Shown: piece by piece, positions 1,264-8,754 of the stretch
How the letters are laid out: each line of letters opens with the position of its first letter
Numbering within the stretch: the first letter of the stretch is position 1
IMG/VR virus record: IMGVR_UViG_3300030451_000561
Span: 13,940 to 38,281 of that record
DNA from: a virus
DNA length: 24,342 bases
Reading direction: 5' to 3' (one strand)
Made by a program: the position numbers and the translations under genes
Notes under the pieces: model-generated
The model's input: the letters and a program-made list of their open reading frames with translations, nothing else
What the model was told of the DNA's origin: nothing
The model's database searches: none

Positions 1264-2247
1264 ATGACCCAAACAACTGTCAAAAAACAAACTACCAAAG
1301 AACCTTACAATCCTGATAAGGGGGTTCAAGAATTAGCTGATAAGCTGATCTCACTAATGGAAAAAGGTTGTAATCCTTTCCGTAAAGAGTGGACACCTGA
1401 AGCTGACCACATGAACTTTACCACTGGAGAATACTACCAAAATGGTAACTTGATATGCCTTGAGATAGATAAACTCGCACAAGGTTTTGAACACCCTTAC
1501 TGGTGCGGTTTTAAACAGGCTCAAAAATGGGGTCTAAAAATCAAAAAAGGTAGCAAGTCAGCTATCATTCTTAGACCTATCACAATCAACGATAAGCGAC
1601 TAGATGATGATGGCCAACAAATAGAAACAGGTGCTAGATTTACTATCTTTAGACCTGTGCGAGTGTTCAATATAGCCTGTTTCGTAGGTTCAAATCCTGA
1701 GAATCAGAAAAAGCTAGACAATAGAATAGCTGAGCTACAAAAACAACATGAAGCTACTAACTTTGAGCCACTAGATGACAGGTTAAAGCGTGTACATGAC
1801 ATAGTTGTTACCAACTACATTGATAAGCACCTTAAAAACTTCAGTCACAAAGGGGATAGAGCATACTATGACGTACTCTTTGACGAGATCGTAGTTCCCG
1901 ATAGAACTAGGTTCTCTAATAACGAGAATTACTACGCTGTAGTTATGCACGAAGCCTGTCATAGCAGTGGTTCTCAAGAGAGACTAGCGAGACAAGGCAT
2001 AGTAAAAGCCTGCGGATTTGGCTCTGAACTTTATGCCGAGGAGGAGATCATCACAGAATGTGCAGCGTTTTTACTAGCTAGAGAGTTGAAAGTCAGCACC
2101 ACTGATGACCAACACGCTAGTTACCTTAAGAACTGGATTAGTAAACTCAGGAAAGAACCCAAGTTTATTAACACTATCTTAGGACAATCAGTAAAAGCTA
2201 AGAACTTTATCCTAAACCCGATAGTTGACAAATCCGATAACACATGA
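1264..2247 (+). CDS. ardC: ArdC-like antirestriction protein (ssDNA-binding + zincin metallopeptidase)
   Basis: A 327-residue protein with the ArdC two-domain layout. The N-terminal part (about residues 15-140) resembles the ArdC single-stranded-DNA-binding domain, with the typical KGCNPFRKEW, GEYYQNGNLI and KQAQKWGLKIKKGSKS segments. The C-terminal part holds the zincin motif HEACH (H229, E230, H233) and a downstream YAEEEIITECAAFLLARE helix whose E261 or E265 would be the third zinc ligand. ArdC of plasmids protects incoming single-stranded DNA from type I restriction. In this early position the protein plausibly plays the role that Ocr (gp0.3) plays in T7. The leader is CTTTACCAAAAAC directly before ATG, with no Shine-Dalgarno. 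Both domains look intact and the length is normal for the family. Antirestriction activity in this phage is inferred. Confidence 0.88.
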   Translation: MTQTTVKKQTTKEPYNPDKGVQELADKLISLMEKGCNPFRKEWTPEADHMNFTTGEYYQNGNLICLEIDKLAQGFEHPYWCGFKQAQKWGLKIKKGSKSAIILRPITINDKRLDDDGQQIETGARFTIFRPVRVFNIACFVGSNPENQKKLDNRIAELQKQHEATNFEPLDDRLKRVHDIVVTNYIDKHLKNFSHKGDRAYYDVLFDEIVVPDRTRFSNNENYYAVVMHEACHSSGSQERLARQGIVKACGFGSELYAEEEIITECAAFLLARELKVSTTDDQHASYLKNWISKLRKEPKFINTILGQSVKAKNFILNPIVDKSDNT

Positions 2248-2259
2248 TAGAGTGTTATC
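2236..2259 (+). promoter_or_regulatory. Hairpin spanning the ardC stop codon
   Basis: GATAACAC (2236-2243) pairs perfectly with GTGTTATC (2252-2259) around the loop ATGATAGA, which contains the TGA stop of the ArdC-like gene. No T tract follows. It is the first of three stems in the 100-bp gap before the next gene. Confidence 0.5.
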
Positions 2260-2263
2260 AGAA

Positions 2264-2304
2264 CCACTCTTATTAGCCCTTGATTCAGGGGCTAGTATGA
2301 GTGG
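2264..2304 (+). promoter_or_regulatory. Long 17-bp stem-loop, possible RNA processing site
   Basis: Bases 2264-2280 pair with 2288-2304 around the loop TGATTCA. Sixteen of 17 positions pair, counting two G-T pairs; the outer arms are CCACTC and GAGTGG, the inner core TAGCCC and GGGCTA. There is no following T run. The length and position between early genes resemble T7 RNase III sites, which is an inference. Confidence 0.55.
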
Positions 2305-2321
2305 CTCACAAAGAGTCACTC
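2299..2321 (+). promoter_or_regulatory. Alternative hairpin sharing an arm with the preceding stem
   Basis: GAGTGGCTC (2299-2307) pairs with GAGTCACTC (2313-2321) around ACAAA, giving nine pairs including one G-T. Its 5' arm reuses the GAGTGG that closes the 2264-2304 stem, so the two structures cannot form fully at once. Such an arrangement is typical of attenuator or switch RNAs, but no ligand or leader peptide is evident. Confidence 0.45.
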
Positions 2322-2349
2322 AGTTGTAAACGCTTTACTTCTATTAACT

Positions 2350-2853
2350 ATGGAATTACAATTCCCACAATCCTCTCATCATTCAGGTTTAAGAATGATG
2401 CTTCGCAACCCACACCCTAACAAGGAAAGGCATGGCGACTGTGGTACAAGGGCTATATGTTTAGCCTACGACCTTGACTATAAGGAAGTCTGGGATAGGG
2501 CAACCTATTACAAACGGAGAGATAGTTACTACTATGACCAATGGGGTCAACGTAGAAACAGTATGCGATCAGCCGACTGGGGTCTAAGTAAGCAAGACTT
2601 ATTGGCAACACTAAGGTACTTCGACCTTGATGTTACATACGTCAGCCTTACTGGATATGACAACAAAGACAAGTCAACGTGGTTGTACTTTAATCAGAAC
2701 AATTTACCTAAGACTTGTATAGCTCATATCCCTAGCCACTGGGTTGCTGTAAGAGATGGGGCAATCTGGGATACCTACGATAGTAGAGGTAAACGACCCA
2801 GAAAACTTAGAGGTTATGTATGTCTCAAGACAGACAGATTACCTAACCACTAA
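2350..2853 (+). CDS. Early papain-fold-like cysteine protease family protein
   Basis: A 167-residue protein with a likely Cys-His-Asp arrangement. GDCGTRAI at residues 29-36 would carry the nucleophile C31 at a helix start. HWVAVRDGAIWDTYDS at 130-145 would supply H130 and D141 or D144. The pattern DCxxRAIAxA...HxVAVxDGxxxDTW is one I recall in uncharacterised phage and bacterial proteins with a papain-like or transglutaminase-like fold. The cellular target is unknown. The early position and single-domain build make it a candidate host-takeover peptidase, isopeptidase or amidase; an inactive scaffold role is possible. The start is ATG in the TTAACTATG context, 28 bp after the alternative hairpins, which may control it. 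Confidence 0.6.
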   Translation: MELQFPQSSHHSGLRMMLRNPHPNKERHGDCGTRAICLAYDLDYKEVWDRATYYKRRDSYYYDQWGQRRNSMRSADWGLSKQDLLATLRYFDLDVTYVSLTGYDNKDKSTWLYFNQNNLPKTCIAHIPSHWVAVRDGAIWDTYDSRGKRPRKLRGYVCLKTDRLPNH

Positions 2854-3888: not shown

Positions 3889-4071
3889 ATGAAGCACCGC
3901 AAACCCTCGCAAACTCTTTGGGAACTAGAGTCTATCTATGATCGCCTTAGTAGGATTACAGGCACACAACCAAAGGATTACTGGCGAACCCTACCTACTA
4001 GGGAAGCTATCACAATTCTCAAAAGAGAAATTATTAAAACAACTTTATCCATTAAGGAGTCACAACAATGA
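3889..4071 (+). CDS. Small basic early protein, unknown function
   Basis: A 60-residue protein starting two bases after the previous stop. It is basic and helical-looking, with SQTLWELESIYDRLSRITGT near the N-terminus and EAITILKREIIKTTLSIKE near the end. The layout suggests a small two-helix protein. Its stop TGA overlaps the ATG of the next gene (ATGA). The Shine-Dalgarno of that next gene lies inside this coding region. A longer frame at 3938-4153 on the same strand crosses both genes and is judged a shadow. Confidence 0.6.
   Translation: MKHRKPSQTLWELESIYDRLSRITGTQPKDYWRTLPTREAITILKREIIKTTLSIKESQQ
4056..4064 (+). promoter_or_regulatory. GGAGTCACA ribosome binding site, third copy
   Basis: GGAGTCACA sits three bases before the ATG at 4068 and fixes that start. 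The same nine-base element precedes the genes at 2918, 3452 and 4834, but the upstream hairpin and long leader are missing here. Confidence 0.7.
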
Positions 4072-4370
4072 GAAAACACACTATCACTGTCTATTCCAAC
4101 AGCGAGTATTCACTTCACGAAATACTAAGAGATACCAGTTGGGATATTACTAAACAAGTTTTCGATAGAGAAGACAAGACCAAACAAAAGTTTGAAGGAC
4201 ACATTGAAGTCGAGAGAGAGTATATGCTATCCGACTATGATGGCAAGAAAGAAAATCCTAATTGGAGATTCTCAGGTAATCAGGACACAGTTTCTAGGTG
4301 GACTAGCGAGGTAGTACCTGACGAAGAATATATAAACTTTCAAGACCCTAATAATTATGTGAGGTATTAG
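4068..4370 (+). CDS. Early protein of 100 residues, unknown function
   Basis: This protein is not recognised. It begins MRKHTITVYSNSEYSLHEIL, contains EGHIEVEREYMLSDYDGKK and GNQDTVSRWTSEVVPDE, and ends in NYVRY. It is charged, near neutral and probably alpha/beta; it has no cysteine or membrane segment. The start is supported by GGAGTCACA and by the ATGA overlap with the preceding gene. The next small gene starts two bases after its stop, continuing the tightly packed early operon. Confidence 0.65.
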   Translation: MRKHTITVYSNSEYSLHEILRDTSWDITKQVFDREDKTKQKFEGHIEVEREYMLSDYDGKKENPNWRFSGNQDTVSRWTSEVVPDEEYINFQDPNNYVRY

Positions 4371-4372
4371 TA

Positions 4373-4525
4373 ATGGAGTATGAAATTAAACAAGTACTTA
4401 TGCAGGACAACATAGGTATTTATGAAGCTTACTTTCTTATAGATTATAAGAACTGTAAGATAAACAAATTTGGCATAGAAGAAAAAGCTAAAGACTTAGC
4501 TGTAAAGAGAGGTCTTGTTAGATGA
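4373..4525 (+). CDS. Small early protein, 50 residues, unknown function
   Basis: A 50-residue frame beginning MEYEIKQVLMQDNIGIYEAY and ending in EEKAKDLAVKRGLVR. It reads as a plausible beta-beta-alpha miniprotein with a basic tail. It starts two bases after the previous stop and its TGA overlaps the ATG of the zinc-ribbon gene (ATGA). It exactly fills the gap between two better supported genes, which is the main evidence. Confidence 0.6.
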   Translation: MEYEIKQVLMQDNIGIYEAYFLIDYKNCKINKFGIEEKAKDLAVKRGLVR

Positions 4526-4755
4526 GTATATGCCCTAACTGTAGGAGTCTCAATACTAAAAATCTTGAGACTCGATTCAGGAGTGGTAAGCCTAACCCTA
4601 TCAATAAGAACAAGGCTAACATTCCATACACTTCAAGGCGAAGAGAATGTACTGACTGTGGTAAAAGATACACTACAAGAGAATACAATATCGTTGATCT
4701 TATTGCCTTTGCAAAACTGCCAGAGCTACAAAGGATTGATGACCTTATGCCTTGA
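4522..4755 (+). CDS. NrdR-like zinc-ribbon protein lacking the ATP-cone
   Basis: A 77-residue protein with a four-cysteine zinc ribbon: CPNC (C4, C7) and CTDC (C43, C46). The segment RRRECTDCGKRYTTRE at 39-54 closely matches the signature of NrdR, the repressor of bacterial ribonucleotide reductase genes (RRRREC..C..RFTT.E). Real NrdR is about twice as long and carries an ATP-cone after the ribbon; that part is absent. The spacing between the cysteine pairs is also longer than in NrdR. It may bind DNA, perhaps competing with host NrdR, or may be a general zinc-ribbon transcription factor. The gene is coupled to both neighbours by ATGA or adjacent overlaps. Confidence 0.7.
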   Translation: MSICPNCRSLNTKNLETRFRSGKPNPINKNKANIPYTSRRRECTDCGKRYTTREYNIVDLIAFAKLPELQRIDDLMP

Positions 4756-4913
4756 TGAACACAAGAGAAAAGATTGACTACGCACAAAAGCGTATCAAAG
4801 AACTAACCACCCTTATTAACCTTTGGAGTCACAATGAAAAAGAAAGTACCAACACTCAAGGAAGCTGCTCGCACAACTTACAAGAGAAGAAAGAACGGAG
4901 ATGTATCAGCTAA
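4755..4913 (+). CDS. Small helical protein overlapping the integrase start
   Basis: A 52-residue frame whose ATG shares a base with the preceding stop (TGATG). It begins MNTREKIDYAQKRIKELTTL and continues INLWSHNEKES. An amphipathic helix of the pattern YAQKRIKELTTLINLW is common in small uncharacterised proteins near the RNA polymerase gene of related phages, as I recall. The last 80 bp overlap the integrase in another frame, where its sequence becomes unstructured and Cys/Ser-rich. The useful part is therefore probably the first 30 residues. Confidence 0.5.
   Translation: MNTREKIDYAQKRIKELTTLINLWSHNEKESTNTQGSCSHNLQEKKERRCIS
4825..4833 (+). promoter_or_regulatory. GGAGTCACA ribosome binding site of the integrase
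   Basis: GGAGTCACA abuts the integrase ATG at 4834. It is the fourth copy of this site and sets the integrase start inside the overlapping 4755 frame. Its GGAG core is eight bases from the ATG, a normal distance. Confidence 0.65.
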
Positions 4914-5682
4914 AGATTTTCTTACTAGCATGAGACACAATGTTCAAGCGTTAGGAGACATACCAGTAAACAAGATTACTACCAGTCTTATTAACAAGAT
5001 GAATGACTACAACAAGTCACGACCTAACTGTAATGAAGTAGTCAACAAGAAGATGGGTCATCTCAAGCTAGTGTTAGAAGACTGTAGAGATGATGGGTAT
5101 ATAACTATGCCTGAGTTTCCTAAAGCTAGGCGAGTCAAGAAGAACAAGAAGGTACACTACCTGACTGCTGATATGGAAAGAGAACTCATGTCTTACTTGA
5201 CTTGCTTCAATTACCACGAACACCGAGATGTGTTCAAGTGTTTGATTGATATAGGTTGCAGGGTCATGGAACTACTGACACTCGAAAAAAGATTTGTTGA
5301 CTTTGACAAGAATCAAATTACATTCCAGTACAGGAAGAACGGAAGACCTAACACTGTGCCTATGACTAATGCTGTCAGGTCTATCATCAAACCTTACTAT
5401 GACAAATGCAATAGCTTAGACTTACTGTTCGATCACGACTACTACTGGGCTAGTAGTATCTTTGCTAAAGCTAAGAAGGAACTAGGGTATAGCAAACACA
5501 AGTGGTACAAGATACATTTGTTTAGAGATACGTGTGGTTCAAGACTTGCTCAAGCAGGAATACAATTACTGATTATCCGAGACTGGCTAGGACACGAAGA
5601 CGTACAAATGACAGAGAAGTATTCTCATCTAGCACCTGACTCTATGCACCAAGTAGTAGGAGTACTAAATGAATCCGAGTAA
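4834..5682 (+). CDS. int: Tyrosine recombinase, phage integrase
   Basis: A 282-residue site-specific recombinase. The N-terminal core-binding region (about 1-100) includes the SAM-like helices around DIPVNKITTSLINKMNDYN. The catalytic domain contains R143 (IGCRVMELL), K168 in the beta-hairpin (YRKNGRPNTVPM), H228 and R231 (HLFR), H254 (WLGHEDVQMT) and the nucleophile Y263 (EKYSHL), so the full R-K-H-R-H-Y set is present. The short length suggests that a separate arm-binding domain is reduced or missing. The gene lies directly upstream of the RNA polymerase and overlaps it by 14 bp. This is the place where integrases occur in several marine T7-like phages. It implies a lysogenic option; attP and repressor were not identified. 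Confidence 0.95.
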   Translation: MKKKVPTLKEAARTTYKRRKNGDVSAKDFLTSMRHNVQALGDIPVNKITTSLINKMNDYNKSRPNCNEVVNKKMGHLKLVLEDCRDDGYITMPEFPKARRVKKNKKVHYLTADMERELMSYLTCFNYHEHRDVFKCLIDIGCRVMELLTLEKRFVDFDKNQITFQYRKNGRPNTVPMTNAVRSIIKPYYDKCNSLDLLFDHDYYWASSIFAKAKKELGYSKHKWYKIHLFRDTCGSRLAQAGIQLLIIRDWLGHEDVQMTEKYSHLAPDSMHQVVGVLNESE

Positions 5683-8062
5683 GAAACAATTAGAGCTAGA
5701 GCAAAGTATCTTTAGCATCTCAGGGTATAACAAACTATCTAGGAATAACAAACTAAGAGAGAAGGGCAGGGAGTCTGAAACACCATACGCTAGAAACATG
5801 ATTGAAGCAGGACTTGATGCCCTTACAAAAGCACTGAAGTTATACGTTGAAAAATCTATGACAGGACAGGCAGGAGTCAGGGCTGTAGCTGCAAAATATA
5901 TAGCTCAGTTCCCTGACCTTGACGTAGTTTCTTTTATTGCTTTTAAAGTAATCATAGATAACACATCACTTGAAAAACCTACAACAACAATCGCTATAAA
6001 CATAGGTCAAATGTTAGAAGATGAAATGCGTTATACAATCTTTGAACAGCTAGACCCAAAACATTTTAAGAACATCAAGAGACATACCAGAGATACAAAC
6101 CATACTGGTTACAAAAAGAATATGGTTAGAACTCACATGAGTAAGAAGGGTATAGAGTTTGAGACATGGAAGAAGGAAGACAAGTTAAAGATAGGTCTAG
6201 TTCTTATTGATCTAGTAATGATAAACGTAGGTATGGTCAAGATGATTAACAAGAGAGTAGGCAAGAGTCTGTTATCTTGCTTAGTCTTTACTGAAGTAAC
6301 AATGAAGTGGATACAGAAGGGGCGAGCTAATCGCATAGCTGCATACCCACAATACTTACCTTGCTATGACAAACCCAAACCATATACAACATTATCTGAT
6401 GGTGGTTTTTATACTGAGAGACTTAGAACAAAAGCTATTAAGACTTCTAATCCTGAGACATTAAAAAGGTTACAAGAAGAAAACTTAACAGTATGTCTAA
6501 AGGCTCTAAACCTTGCGTCAAGTACAGCGTGGGGGGTAAATAAATTTGTGTTTGATACTCTTGTATATTGTTGGGAAGAAGGTATAGAAGTAGGGGGTTT
6601 GATAAATAAAGAACCACTAGAGTTACCACCTAAACCTGATGACTGGAATGATAAGGAGAAGACAAAGACATGGAGATACCACGCAGGTCTTACACATGAT
6701 ACTAACCACAAGAACAAAGTCAAAAGGTATCAGATACTATCAATCATTGATACCGCAAAAAAATTTCTTGGAGAAAAATTTTATCACGTTTACCAAATGG
6801 ATTTTACTTCTAGGTTTTATCCTGTAACTGCACACTTCCACCCACAAGGAACTGACATAGCCAGAGCCTTGCATCAATTCTATGAAGGTGGAGAGATCAA
6901 GACTAAGAGACAACTAGACTGGTTAGCTATAGCAGGAGCTAATGCTTTTGGTATGGGTAAGTGTAGCTATGAAGAGAGACTAGAGTGGGCGTACATAGAA
7001 GGACAAGACTATGCAGAACAAGTAGCACTTGACCCTATAGAGAATCTAGATATATGGGGTAATGCTGCTGACCCATTCCAGTTTCTTGCATGGTGTAAAG
7101 AGTGGCATGACTTTATGCAAGTGGGAATGAACAATGGTTTTATCTCACGTTATTGTTGTTGCCTTGATGGTACGAACAATGGCTATCAACACATAGCAGG
7201 ACTGGTATCTTGTAAGGAATTAGCAGGCAAGGTTAACTTACAATACAGCAAACAACCGCAGGATTTATACAAAGAAGTATTAGATAAAGTATTACTCTTA
7301 CTCAAGAACGACAATACAATACAGGGTCAACTTTGGTATGGCCATAGAAATAAATTAACTAGGAAGTTTATAAAGAAACCAGTGTTGATGATACCTTATA
7401 ACTCAACTACCTTTGGCATAGCTAATCATGTGGAAAGATATTTTGTTAATGAGAATTTTTATCTAGCAAAAAATTTTAAGAACAACTTTTATCTTGCAAC
7501 AATTATTGAGACTGCTGTAAGTATGATTAGTCCTGAGAGTATAAACCTGCTGAAGTATCTATCAAAGATAGCTGTATGTTTTAACAAAGAAAACAAAACT
7601 ATATCTTGGAATACTCCCTCTGGTTTTCTAGTTCAACAGAAGTACTTTGTTAACAACAGCAAGATAATAAGAACTAAGTTAAGTAATCAAAGTATGAGAT
7701 TAAACTTGGCTGAACCTACCTTGCAAGTTGACAAAAGAAAACAAGCACAAGGTTTTCCTAGTAACTATATACATAGCTTTGATGCTGCACACCTACAGTT
7801 AACCTTAGTTGAAGCAAGTAAGATGGGTCTTGAACAGTTCTGTATTATCCACGACTGCTTTGGTAGTCCTGCTGCTGATCTTGATAGACTGATTGAATGT
7901 GTGAAGCAGACATTTTTCTACATATATAGTGACAATAATTTAGACAACTTACATCATCAAGTAGCAGAACAACTTAGTGATACAAAGGGATTACCACCTG
8001 CACTACGCATGGGAGACTTTGATATTACAGATGTGTTGACAGCACCATATATATTTACATGA
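5669..8062 (+). CDS. T7-like single-subunit DNA-dependent RNA polymerase
   Basis: A 797-residue polymerase, somewhat shorter than T7 gp1 (883). Motif A is CLDGTNNGYQHIAGL with catalytic D500. Motif B is TRKFIKKPVLMIPYNSTTFG, whose R565, K569 and Y577 align with T7 R627, K631 and Y639. Motif C is IIHDCFGSPAADL with H728 and D729, matching T7 H811 and D812. The upstream YQMDFTSRFYPVTAHFHPQG block and the terminal region are also conserved. The enzyme transcribes middle and late phage genes from phage promoters. The start has a good AGGAG site at 5658-5662 inside the integrase gene, so the two are probably cotranslated. The shorter length lies mainly in the N-terminal, promoter-recognition half, so specificity is likely different from T7. 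Confidence 0.97.
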   Translation: MNPSKKQLELEQSIFSISGYNKLSRNNKLREKGRESETPYARNMIEAGLDALTKALKLYVEKSMTGQAGVRAVAAKYIAQFPDLDVVSFIAFKVIIDNTSLEKPTTTIAINIGQMLEDEMRYTIFEQLDPKHFKNIKRHTRDTNHTGYKKNMVRTHMSKKGIEFETWKKEDKLKIGLVLIDLVMINVGMVKMINKRVGKSLLSCLVFTEVTMKWIQKGRANRIAAYPQYLPCYDKPKPYTTLSDGGFYTERLRTKAIKTSNPETLKRLQEENLTVCLKALNLASSTAWGVNKFVFDTLVYCWEEGIEVGGLINKEPLELPPKPDDWNDKEKTKTWRYHAGLTHDTNHKNKVKRYQILSIIDTAKKFLGEKFYHVYQMDFTSRFYPVTAHFHPQGTDIARALHQFYEGGEIKTKRQLDWLAIAGANAFGMGKCSYEERLEWAYIEGQDYAEQVALDPIENLDIWGNAADPFQFLAWCKEWHDFMQVGMNNGFISRYCCCLDGTNNGYQHIAGLVSCKELAGKVNLQYSKQPQDLYKEVLDKVLLLLKNDNTIQGQLWYGHRNKLTRKFIKKPVLMIPYNSTTFGIANHVERYFVNENFYLAKNFKNNFYLATIIETAVSMISPESINLLKYLSKIAVCFNKENKTISWNTPSGFLVQQKYFVNNSKIIRTKLSNQSMRLNLAEPTLQVDKRKQAQGFPSNYIHSFDAAHLQLTLVEASKMGLEQFCIIHDCFGSPAADLDRLIECVKQTFFYIYSDNNLDNLHHQVAEQLSDTKGLPPALRMGDFDITDVLTAPYIFT

Positions 8063-8130: not shown

Positions 8131-8754
8131 ATGGAACAAATTAATTCGGAGACTATTAAGATAGTCACTCCTGTTGGTACACGTTTTAGGTACTCATGGT
8201 TAGTCACACCTGATGAATATAAAGGTGTTGAGAAATGGAAGACTGAAGCTATCGTACCTGTTGGCGAAGCTAGTCAGAAAATAGCACAACAGTTAGAGGA
8301 CTTGATTGAAGGGTGGAAGGCACAGCTAAAGGCTGCGTTTCCTAAGAGAGAGTTTACTCTTACAAAGAGTCAGAAGACTGGTAAGCCTAGCTTCCCTTGG
8401 TCGTTTGAAGACGAGGGTTTAATCATACGATTAAAGAAAAATGTAATAGGTAAGAAGGGTAAGCTTAGTCCTATCACTATGTTTAAACATGACCCTGCGA
8501 CTGGACAAAACTTGTTGATGACTGAAGAACAAAGACATGAGATGGATAAGATAAGTCCTGAAACTACAGGTCAAATATCTTTCCTAGCTTCAGGCTATGA
8601 CGCAGGTGCTAATGGTGTTGGCATTAAGTGTATGCCATTATCCATTTGTTTCAGAGAGATAGTTCCTTTCAATGGTGGAGCTAGTGACTTTGAAACAACT
8701 GAACCTGCAAGCTATGAAGAAAAAGAAACAGTCAGTTCAGGGGCAGACTTCTAA
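8131..8754 (+). CDS. Single-stranded DNA-binding protein, T7 gp2.5-like
   Basis: A 207-residue protein (T7 gp2.5 has 232). The body fits the gp2.5 OB-fold family, with PVGTRFRYSWLVTPDEYKG at about 11-29, KPSFPWSFEDEG and FLASGYDAGANGVGIKC. The C-terminal tail is acidic and ends in an aromatic residue (EEKETVSSGADF). In T7 such a tail recruits polymerase and helicase-primase. It coats single-stranded DNA in replication and recombination. It is the first gene of the DNA block, and its 3' end overlaps endonuclease I by 41 bp. Its usual polymerase partner is missing from this window, so the tail may contact the helicase or a host polymerase. Confidence 0.9.
   Translation: MEQINSETIKIVTPVGTRFRYSWLVTPDEYKGVEKWKTEAIVPVGEASQKIAQQLEDLIEGWKAQLKAAFPKREFTLTKSQKTGKPSFPWSFEDEGLIIRLKKNVIGKKGKLSPITMFKHDPATGQNLLMTEEQRHEMDKISPETTGQISFLASGYDAGANGVGIKCMPLSICFREIVPFNGGASDFETTEPASYEEKETVSSGADF

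Follow-up and report, generated by a model that had tools for sequence, protein, structure and literature searches.

The question raised by this locus is whether the gene at positions 2350-2853 (+ strand) of the window, by which we mean the whole stretch of 24,342 nucleotides that was analysed, codes for a papain-like enzyme and, if it does, what that enzyme would act on. The initial annotation had noted a Cys, a His and an Asp in the order of a papain-like triad in its translation, and had suggested that the protein is an early cysteine protease, possibly one that takes part in host takeover.

The coding sequence and its conserved residues

The ORF is real and codes for a single-domain protein of 167 residues, as had been described. 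Differences between close relatives fall mostly in the third codon position (46-65 there, compared to 29-36 at the first and 19-24 at the second position), which argues that the ORF is under selection at the protein level. The residue positions given by the initial annotation are also correct in the translation: G29-D30-C31-G-T-R34, H130-W131-V-A-V and W140-D141-T-Y-D144. The codons for D30-C31-G32-T33-R34 are at 2437-2451 (+ strand) and include C31, the predicted nucleophile at the N-terminus of a predicted helix (residues 31-40), with the invariant D30 and R34 around it; those for H130, the predicted catalytic base, and W131, the aromatic residue after it, are at 2737-2742 (+ strand); and those for D141-T-Y-D144 are at 2770-2781 (+ strand), where D141 is the predicted third residue of the triad and family members have either Asp or Asn at position 144. 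An N-terminal signal, a transmembrane stretch or a cell-wall-binding domain is not visible in the 167-residue sequence.

The order of these residues was examined for chance occurrence by using a pattern of Cys, then His at least 60 residues on, then Asp or Asn 8-25 residues further. This pattern was contained in 87% of the shuffles of the 167-residue protein, and Cys-His-Asp/Asn with papain-like spacing was also found in 13 of the 24 ORFs of at least 100 residues in the window. Residue order is at chance level and was therefore rejected as evidence for a triad by itself. The papain-like triad that had been proposed stands instead on the near-invariance of its residues, on their joint loss and on the predicted fold, and it is the conservation among relatives together with the fold that makes it more than a chance arrangement.

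Close relatives of the protein come from marine contigs. More distant relatives were taken from phages, both uncultured and cultured (the latter with members in Myxococcus phage Mx1, Sinorhizobium phage Phosso and Geobacillus phage GBK2), from many viral contigs and from bacterial genomes; the main alignment holds 180 distinct relative sequences from viral and bacterial contigs. The two residues on which the initial annotation had built are near-invariant in these homologues (C31 in 177 of 180 and H130 in 172 of 174), D141 is present in 169 of 173, and D30 and R34 are each present in 178 of 180. When 117 sequences were aligned, most of them 20-30% identical to the 167-residue protein, the strictly invariant columns were exactly D30, C31, R34, H130 and D141, and an alignment of 78 rows led by a distant member gave the identical five. 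Two exceptions at D141, L078 and L093, diverge from the family sequence at just that place, and judged from the sequence their departure resembles what a truncation or a frame break would do. Two relatives on large viral contigs, L100 (3833-4318) and L104, have lost all five residues, which are replaced by N, Q, I/T, S and A, respectively, so that the whole predicted active site is exchanged and these would be natural inactive versions. Both are still open reading frames and retain the remaining domain as well as the residue that matches D144. Because the five residues were lost jointly in L100 and L104, we take C31, H130 and D141, with D30 and R34, to be one active site. The acid of the triad had been left as either D141 or D144. 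D141 is near-invariant, whereas D144 (Asp in 143 of 173 relatives) is Asn in 24 of 173 and was kept when the triad was lost, and D144 was therefore placed second as the triad acid behind D141.

That L100 and L104 have persisted as open reading frames after losing the active site would fit a protein of this family that is catalytically dead and serves as a papain-fold binding protein. For the 167-residue protein this is very improbable, since it retains all five active-site residues, and these residues are near-invariant in a family that is otherwise only 20-30% identical.

Predicted fold and relation to known enzyme families

In the AlphaFold2 model of the 167-residue protein (pLDDT 92.3, pTM 0.87) the helix of residues 31-40 begins at C31, a strand of residues 130-135 begins at H130, and after a two-residue D-G turn a strand of residues 138-141 ends at D141. 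In the model of a remote relative that is about 27% identical (pLDDT 95.7, pTM 0.90) the Cys (residue 20) begins a helix of residues 20-29, the His begins a strand of residues 110-115 and the Asp ends a strand of residues 118-121. The helix with the Cys is the first long one in either case. The predicted secondary-structure positions of the Cys, His and Asp thus fit the papain arrangement in both models. Foldseek matches of the 167-residue model to the PDB were weak (best E 0.023) with papain-fold proteins in the leading rows, and the best E of 0.28 obtained with the remote relative is by itself uninformative. In a second look with VIA-align all 50 rows listed for the 167-residue model were papain-fold proteins, namely C39 peptidases, staphopains and Josephin-type proteins. 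The best among the matches listed was the C39 peptidase 6mpz_B (Z 8.3, rmsd 3.6, 115 residues aligned), and the others included ComA 5xe8_A (Z 7.7, rmsd 3.2, 107 aligned), staphopain C 8oig_A (Z 7.7, rmsd 4.2, 120 aligned) and the clippase PaJOS 9g7g_A (Z 7.3, rmsd 4.3, 137 aligned). All 50 rows listed for the remote relative were papain-fold proteins too (best Z 6.7). A Z of 7-8 is middling and a value of this size can reflect a common arrangement; the papain fold is accepted because the matches are of uniform identity, the triad is conserved and the two models agree, and not because of Z alone. At the level of the predicted model, the protease likeness first suspected from the sequence is supported, as the structures listed are papain-fold proteins, with Josephin-type clippases among them. 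Structure matches in BFVD were nearly all to uncharacterised phage proteins and therefore give no function.

By sequence, the protein matches PHROG 3754, a family listed under 'unknown function', with an E value of 2.9e-9 over residues 20-149 (positions 12-136 of the 145 in the profile), and gut-phage members match the same profile at E 1e-30 to 1e-33. Compared to PHROG 3754, the marine branch to which the 167-residue protein belongs has N- and C-terminal additions and an insert around residues 59-70, and the Trp after the His is a feature of this branch. No match to the 167-residue protein reached the cut-off in Pfam, NCBIfam or PADLOC, tblastn against plasmids gave no match, and neither phmmer nor a profile search of the PDB gave a true sequence match; the antibody chains that were returned from the PDB were discarded as spurious. 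Neither the protein nor its relatives reached the curated cut-off of a known peptidase family, the Pfam models for deamidase, transglutaminase, NlpC/P60, CHAP and amidase gave no match, and Pfam C39 (PF03412) did not match the 167-residue protein or 116 relatives. The only peptidase family in Pfam that recurred was Josephin (PF02099), which scored 11.9 bits with the 167-residue protein against a cut-off of 26 (E 0.21) and had an E below 0.1 in 3 of 117 members, the best being 0.0041, still below the cut-off. When the family was compared with C39 peptidases by hhalign the result was non-significant (P 0.03), although Cys was aligned with Cys and His with His.

With respect to the papain-like superfamily (Pfam clan Peptidase_CA), the predicted fold and the ordered Cys-His-Asp triad are both present, whereas the canonical oxyanion Gln about 5-6 residues ahead of the Cys is absent; no conserved Gln is found in alignment columns 23-29. 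The canonical oxyanion-hole residue is not universal, as cluster III papain-like enzymes are mostly without it (PMC10318531). We hold with high confidence that the 167-residue protein belongs to a family of papain-fold Cys-His-Asp enzymes. On present evidence it resembles a papain-fold enzyme that is not placed in C39, Josephin or NlpC/P60. The PHROG 3754 family was not described in the selected papers of a limited open-access literature search on papain-like phage proteases and, going by the databases and this literature, it is a probable enzyme family newly recognised within a known superfamily. Its likely active site is previously unrecognised in the databases and papers searched. For a family listed without a function there is thereby a specific enzyme hypothesis, which names the active-site residues and has natural inactive variants as controls. 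Members of the family are found in phages of marine, soil and gut origin, in giant phages, and in genomes of Planctomycetes and Acidobacteria.

The known enzymes that the protein resembles most in structure are the C39 peptidases (PCAT1, ComA; PF03412), with Z of 7.5-8.3 among the matches listed. They have in common with it the order of a helix Cys, an LP..I strand, a His on the next strand and then an Asp. However, the C39 domain is joined to an ABC transporter for the export of double-glycine peptides, whereas the phage protein stands alone with 167 residues and no transporter-like ORF adjoins 2350-2853. The spacing from His to Asp is 11 residues in the phage protein compared to about 16 in the aligned C39 sequences, and the phage family differs from C39 also in lacking the conserved Gln and a significant sequence or profile match. 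Staphopain and papain-type peptidases are secreted and have the oxyanion Gln; they are like the phage protein in fold (Z 7.5-7.7) and in the Cys-His-acid order but have no sequence match to it, and, unlike in the classical papain families, the Cys of PHROG 3754 has near it an Asp and an Arg that are both invariant. The Josephin domain and the clippases PaJOS, BpJOS and PcJOS match the model with Z of 6.6-7.3. To our knowledge, the substrate of Josephin-type enzymes is ubiquitin, which bacterial hosts do not have. Josephin-type enzymes have an aromatic residue after the His (PMC7391069), which is not general in the phage family.

Since the closest folds are peptidases, peptidase or isopeptidase chemistry is favoured and is somewhat the likelier outcome; the 167-residue protein would then be catalytically active and specific for peptide bonds. 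The main rival is that the papain fold and the triad belong to a deamidase, transglutaminase or amidase, which would modify rather than cut a host protein. The papain superfamily contains both deamidases and transglutaminases, and PHROG 3754, being without a conserved Gln ahead of the Cys, is in this respect like the cluster III enzymes (PMC10318531). The model of the remote relative also weakly matches the deamidase OspI and Tae amidases (Z 3-4), but the C39, staphopain and Josephin-type peptidases score higher than these (Z 6-8) and no Pfam deamidase or transglutaminase model is matched, which makes this rival unlikely, though it is the first that we would weigh against cleavage. A cell-wall hydrolase of the NlpC/P60 type, acting in entry or lysis, is far less likely still. 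NlpC/P60 enzymes, which are found in phages, have this fold as well (PMC7824862), and gut-phage members of the family are located in a late-type region, next to head genes. However, the third residue is Asp and not His, and strand beta-1 of NlpC/P60 enzymes (cluster II) carries a GD motif that contacts an Arg on strand beta-5 (PMC10318531), but a Gly-Asp is absent from residues 118-127, the strand ahead of the His. Moreover, the protein has no visible signal, membrane or wall-binding part, no NlpC/P60, CHAP or amidase model in Pfam matches it, and its gene has an early position.

The predicted early region of a probable marine podovirus

Immediately upstream of the hydrolase gene, at 1264-2247 (+ strand), is a gene for an ArdC-like protein of 327 residues and two domains, a ssDNA-binding ArdcN domain (PF08401, E 2.6e-19) and a zincin metallopeptidase domain with a HEACH motif (MPTase-PolyVal PF18818, E 7.1e-29); it also matches PHROG 7245. 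This is an ArdcN and MPTase-PolyVal zincin combination in a podovirus early region, and ArdC-N domains have been described as rare in phage-type polyvalent proteins (PMC5512222). An ArdC-like gene is directly upstream in all relatives that are at least 79% identical to the 167-residue protein. Since the hydrolase gene lies directly behind it, two predicted proteases of unlike chemistry are encoded in tandem; the zinc chemistry and the fold of ArdC-type and polyvalent-protein zincins are unrelated to those of a cysteine hydrolase, although the genes are adjacent here. Peptidases of this zincin type in phages are believed to work early or to act against proteins of the host (PMC5512222, PMC7824862), and patchy phage peptidases, ArdC-like zincins among them, have been proposed to target host proteins (PMC7824862). 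Papain or cysteine peptidases are not mentioned in the paper on polyvalent proteins (PMC5512222).

Between the two genes, at 2225-2352 (+ strand), is an intergenic RNA with strong predicted stem-loops (MFE -44 kcal/mol, z -6.35). The complex RNA structure that had been noticed ahead of the gene is thus upheld, and its stems are near-invariant in five related contigs (mean column identity 89% in 6 sequences). Two possible hairpins in it are mutually exclusive as both use the segment GAGTGG. Rfam gave no match for 2225-2352.

Downstream of the hydrolase gene are a tyrosine integrase gene (4834-5682) and a gene for a T7-type RNA polymerase (5669-8062), so that the early-region position beside an ArdC-like gene that the initial annotation had described agrees with what lies on both sides. 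The polymerase and its counterpart in Prochlorococcus phage P-SCSP2 share 63% identity, with similarity at the DNA level too, and P-SCSP2 is a marine podovirus of the MPP-C group that has an integrase upstream of the polymerase (PMC9860041). From the polymerase identity and the integrase-polymerase order, this phage is very likely related to the MPP-C podoviruses. Its host is presumptive, and so is the early timing of the hydrolase gene. Two small genes were also seen here: the one at 4522-4755, just before the integrase, codes for a protein of 77 residues that has an NrdR-like zinc ribbon (PF22811, E 1e-7), and the one at 8131-8754, after the RNA polymerase, for a Gp2.5-like ssDNA-binding protein (PHROG 112, E 3e-9).

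Taken with the fold and the conserved residues, this setting leads us to conclude that the gene product is probably a small cytoplasmic papain-fold cysteine hydrolase, with peptidase or isopeptidase as its probable activity, that is made early beside an ArdC-type zincin. What counts against this explanation is that there is no curated peptidase match, that the Foldseek matches are weak, that the oxyanion Gln is lacking and that gut-phage members have a head-gene cassette. In the mechanism that we propose, the nucleophile that attacks a protein amide bond would be C31, located where the central helix begins, H130 would act as the base and would be oriented by D141, and D30 and R34 would probably be a structural or electrostatic part of the active site. 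The enzyme would be produced early, its gene being upstream of that for the phage RNA polymerase and in the same block as the ArdC-type zincin, and would probably cut or modify a host protein, perhaps a defence protein, as infection starts. That the substrate is a host or defence protein is proposed tentatively, with a probability that we put a little short of even, and a role in host takeover, as had been suggested at the outset, is plausible. If marine members do target host or defence proteins, there would be an early papain-fold cysteine protease in ocean phages related to Prochlorococcus phages.

Relatives in other settings and the choice of substrate

In gut phages, most contigs have the member ahead of a conserved cassette of unknown genes, and in some of the contigs a minor head protein is close by. 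These positions would suit an enzyme that is internal to the phage and that processes a phage protein, for example a head protein or the ArdC-like protein, instead of a host protein. Zincins joined to ArdC-N are thought to free these domains by autoproteolysis (PMC5512222), and because of this proposal proteolytic processing may be a theme of the gene neighbourhood. However, no head gene lies near the marine gene in its early block, the ArdC-like protein, with only its two domains, is short and has a zincin of its own, and more distant members are without an adjacent ArdC gene. Processing of a phage protein is for these reasons quite improbable for the marine gene, and we return to the early hydrolase directed at a host or defence protein as the preferred reading.

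Within that reading, the residue after the catalytic His offers a more specific idea for the marine branch. W131 is present in 20 of 20 marine relatives and absent from the other two groups, where the residue is Leu, Val or mixed. When the position next to the catalytic His is a conserved aromatic one, this is a mark of proteases that cleave ubiquitin or ubiquitin-like proteins after Gly-Gly (PMC7391069), and aligned C39 peptidases that keep the His mostly have Phe or Tyr directly after it. From the Trp, this aromatic mark and the Phe/Tyr of C39 peptidases, Gly-Gly cleavage becomes a testable idea for the marine branch. Its members would be Gly-Gly-directed papain-fold proteases, comparable to a deubiquitinase or a C39 peptidase, and would be produced ahead of the phage RNA polymerase. 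Working in tandem with the ArdC-type zincin, they would be aimed at a host or defence protein or at a bacterial ubiquitin-like modifier that ends in Gly-Gly. It is kept open because of W131 in all 20 marine relatives, the best structural matches being of C39 and Josephin type, and the early position, but we regard it as a long shot.

Outside the gut group the neighbours of the family vary, and the gene-neighbour analysis gave no partner gene common to the whole family. In Planctomycetes members are on chromosomes and are fused to DUF2786-DUF7168, and of 99 Acidobacteriota genomes only 2 have a member. On account of the gut cassette, the Planctomycete fusions and the sporadic presence in Acidobacteriota, the PHROG 3754 family probably serves more than one purpose, and therefore 'host takeover' is not transferable to all of its members.

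Some details of these relatives were also recorded. In the Planctomycete loci, among them L184 (7995-9188) and L195 (7956-9188), the domain is N-terminal in DUF2786/DUF7168 proteins of about 400 residues. The gut cassette lies downstream of the gut-type member in L129, L131, L162, L140, L169 and about 40-50 other gut-phage loci; its genes code for a Q/Y-rich protein, a small M/Q-rich protein, a Gly-rich protein with a W-I-I-L-L-L-L-L stretch and two more, and they match PHROGs 21718, 22984, 16490 and 20016, all annotated without a function, with the fifth gene weakly matching PHROG 20624. One viral contig, L040, carries two members of different subfamilies (453-851 and 3962-4420) that are 3.5 kb apart.
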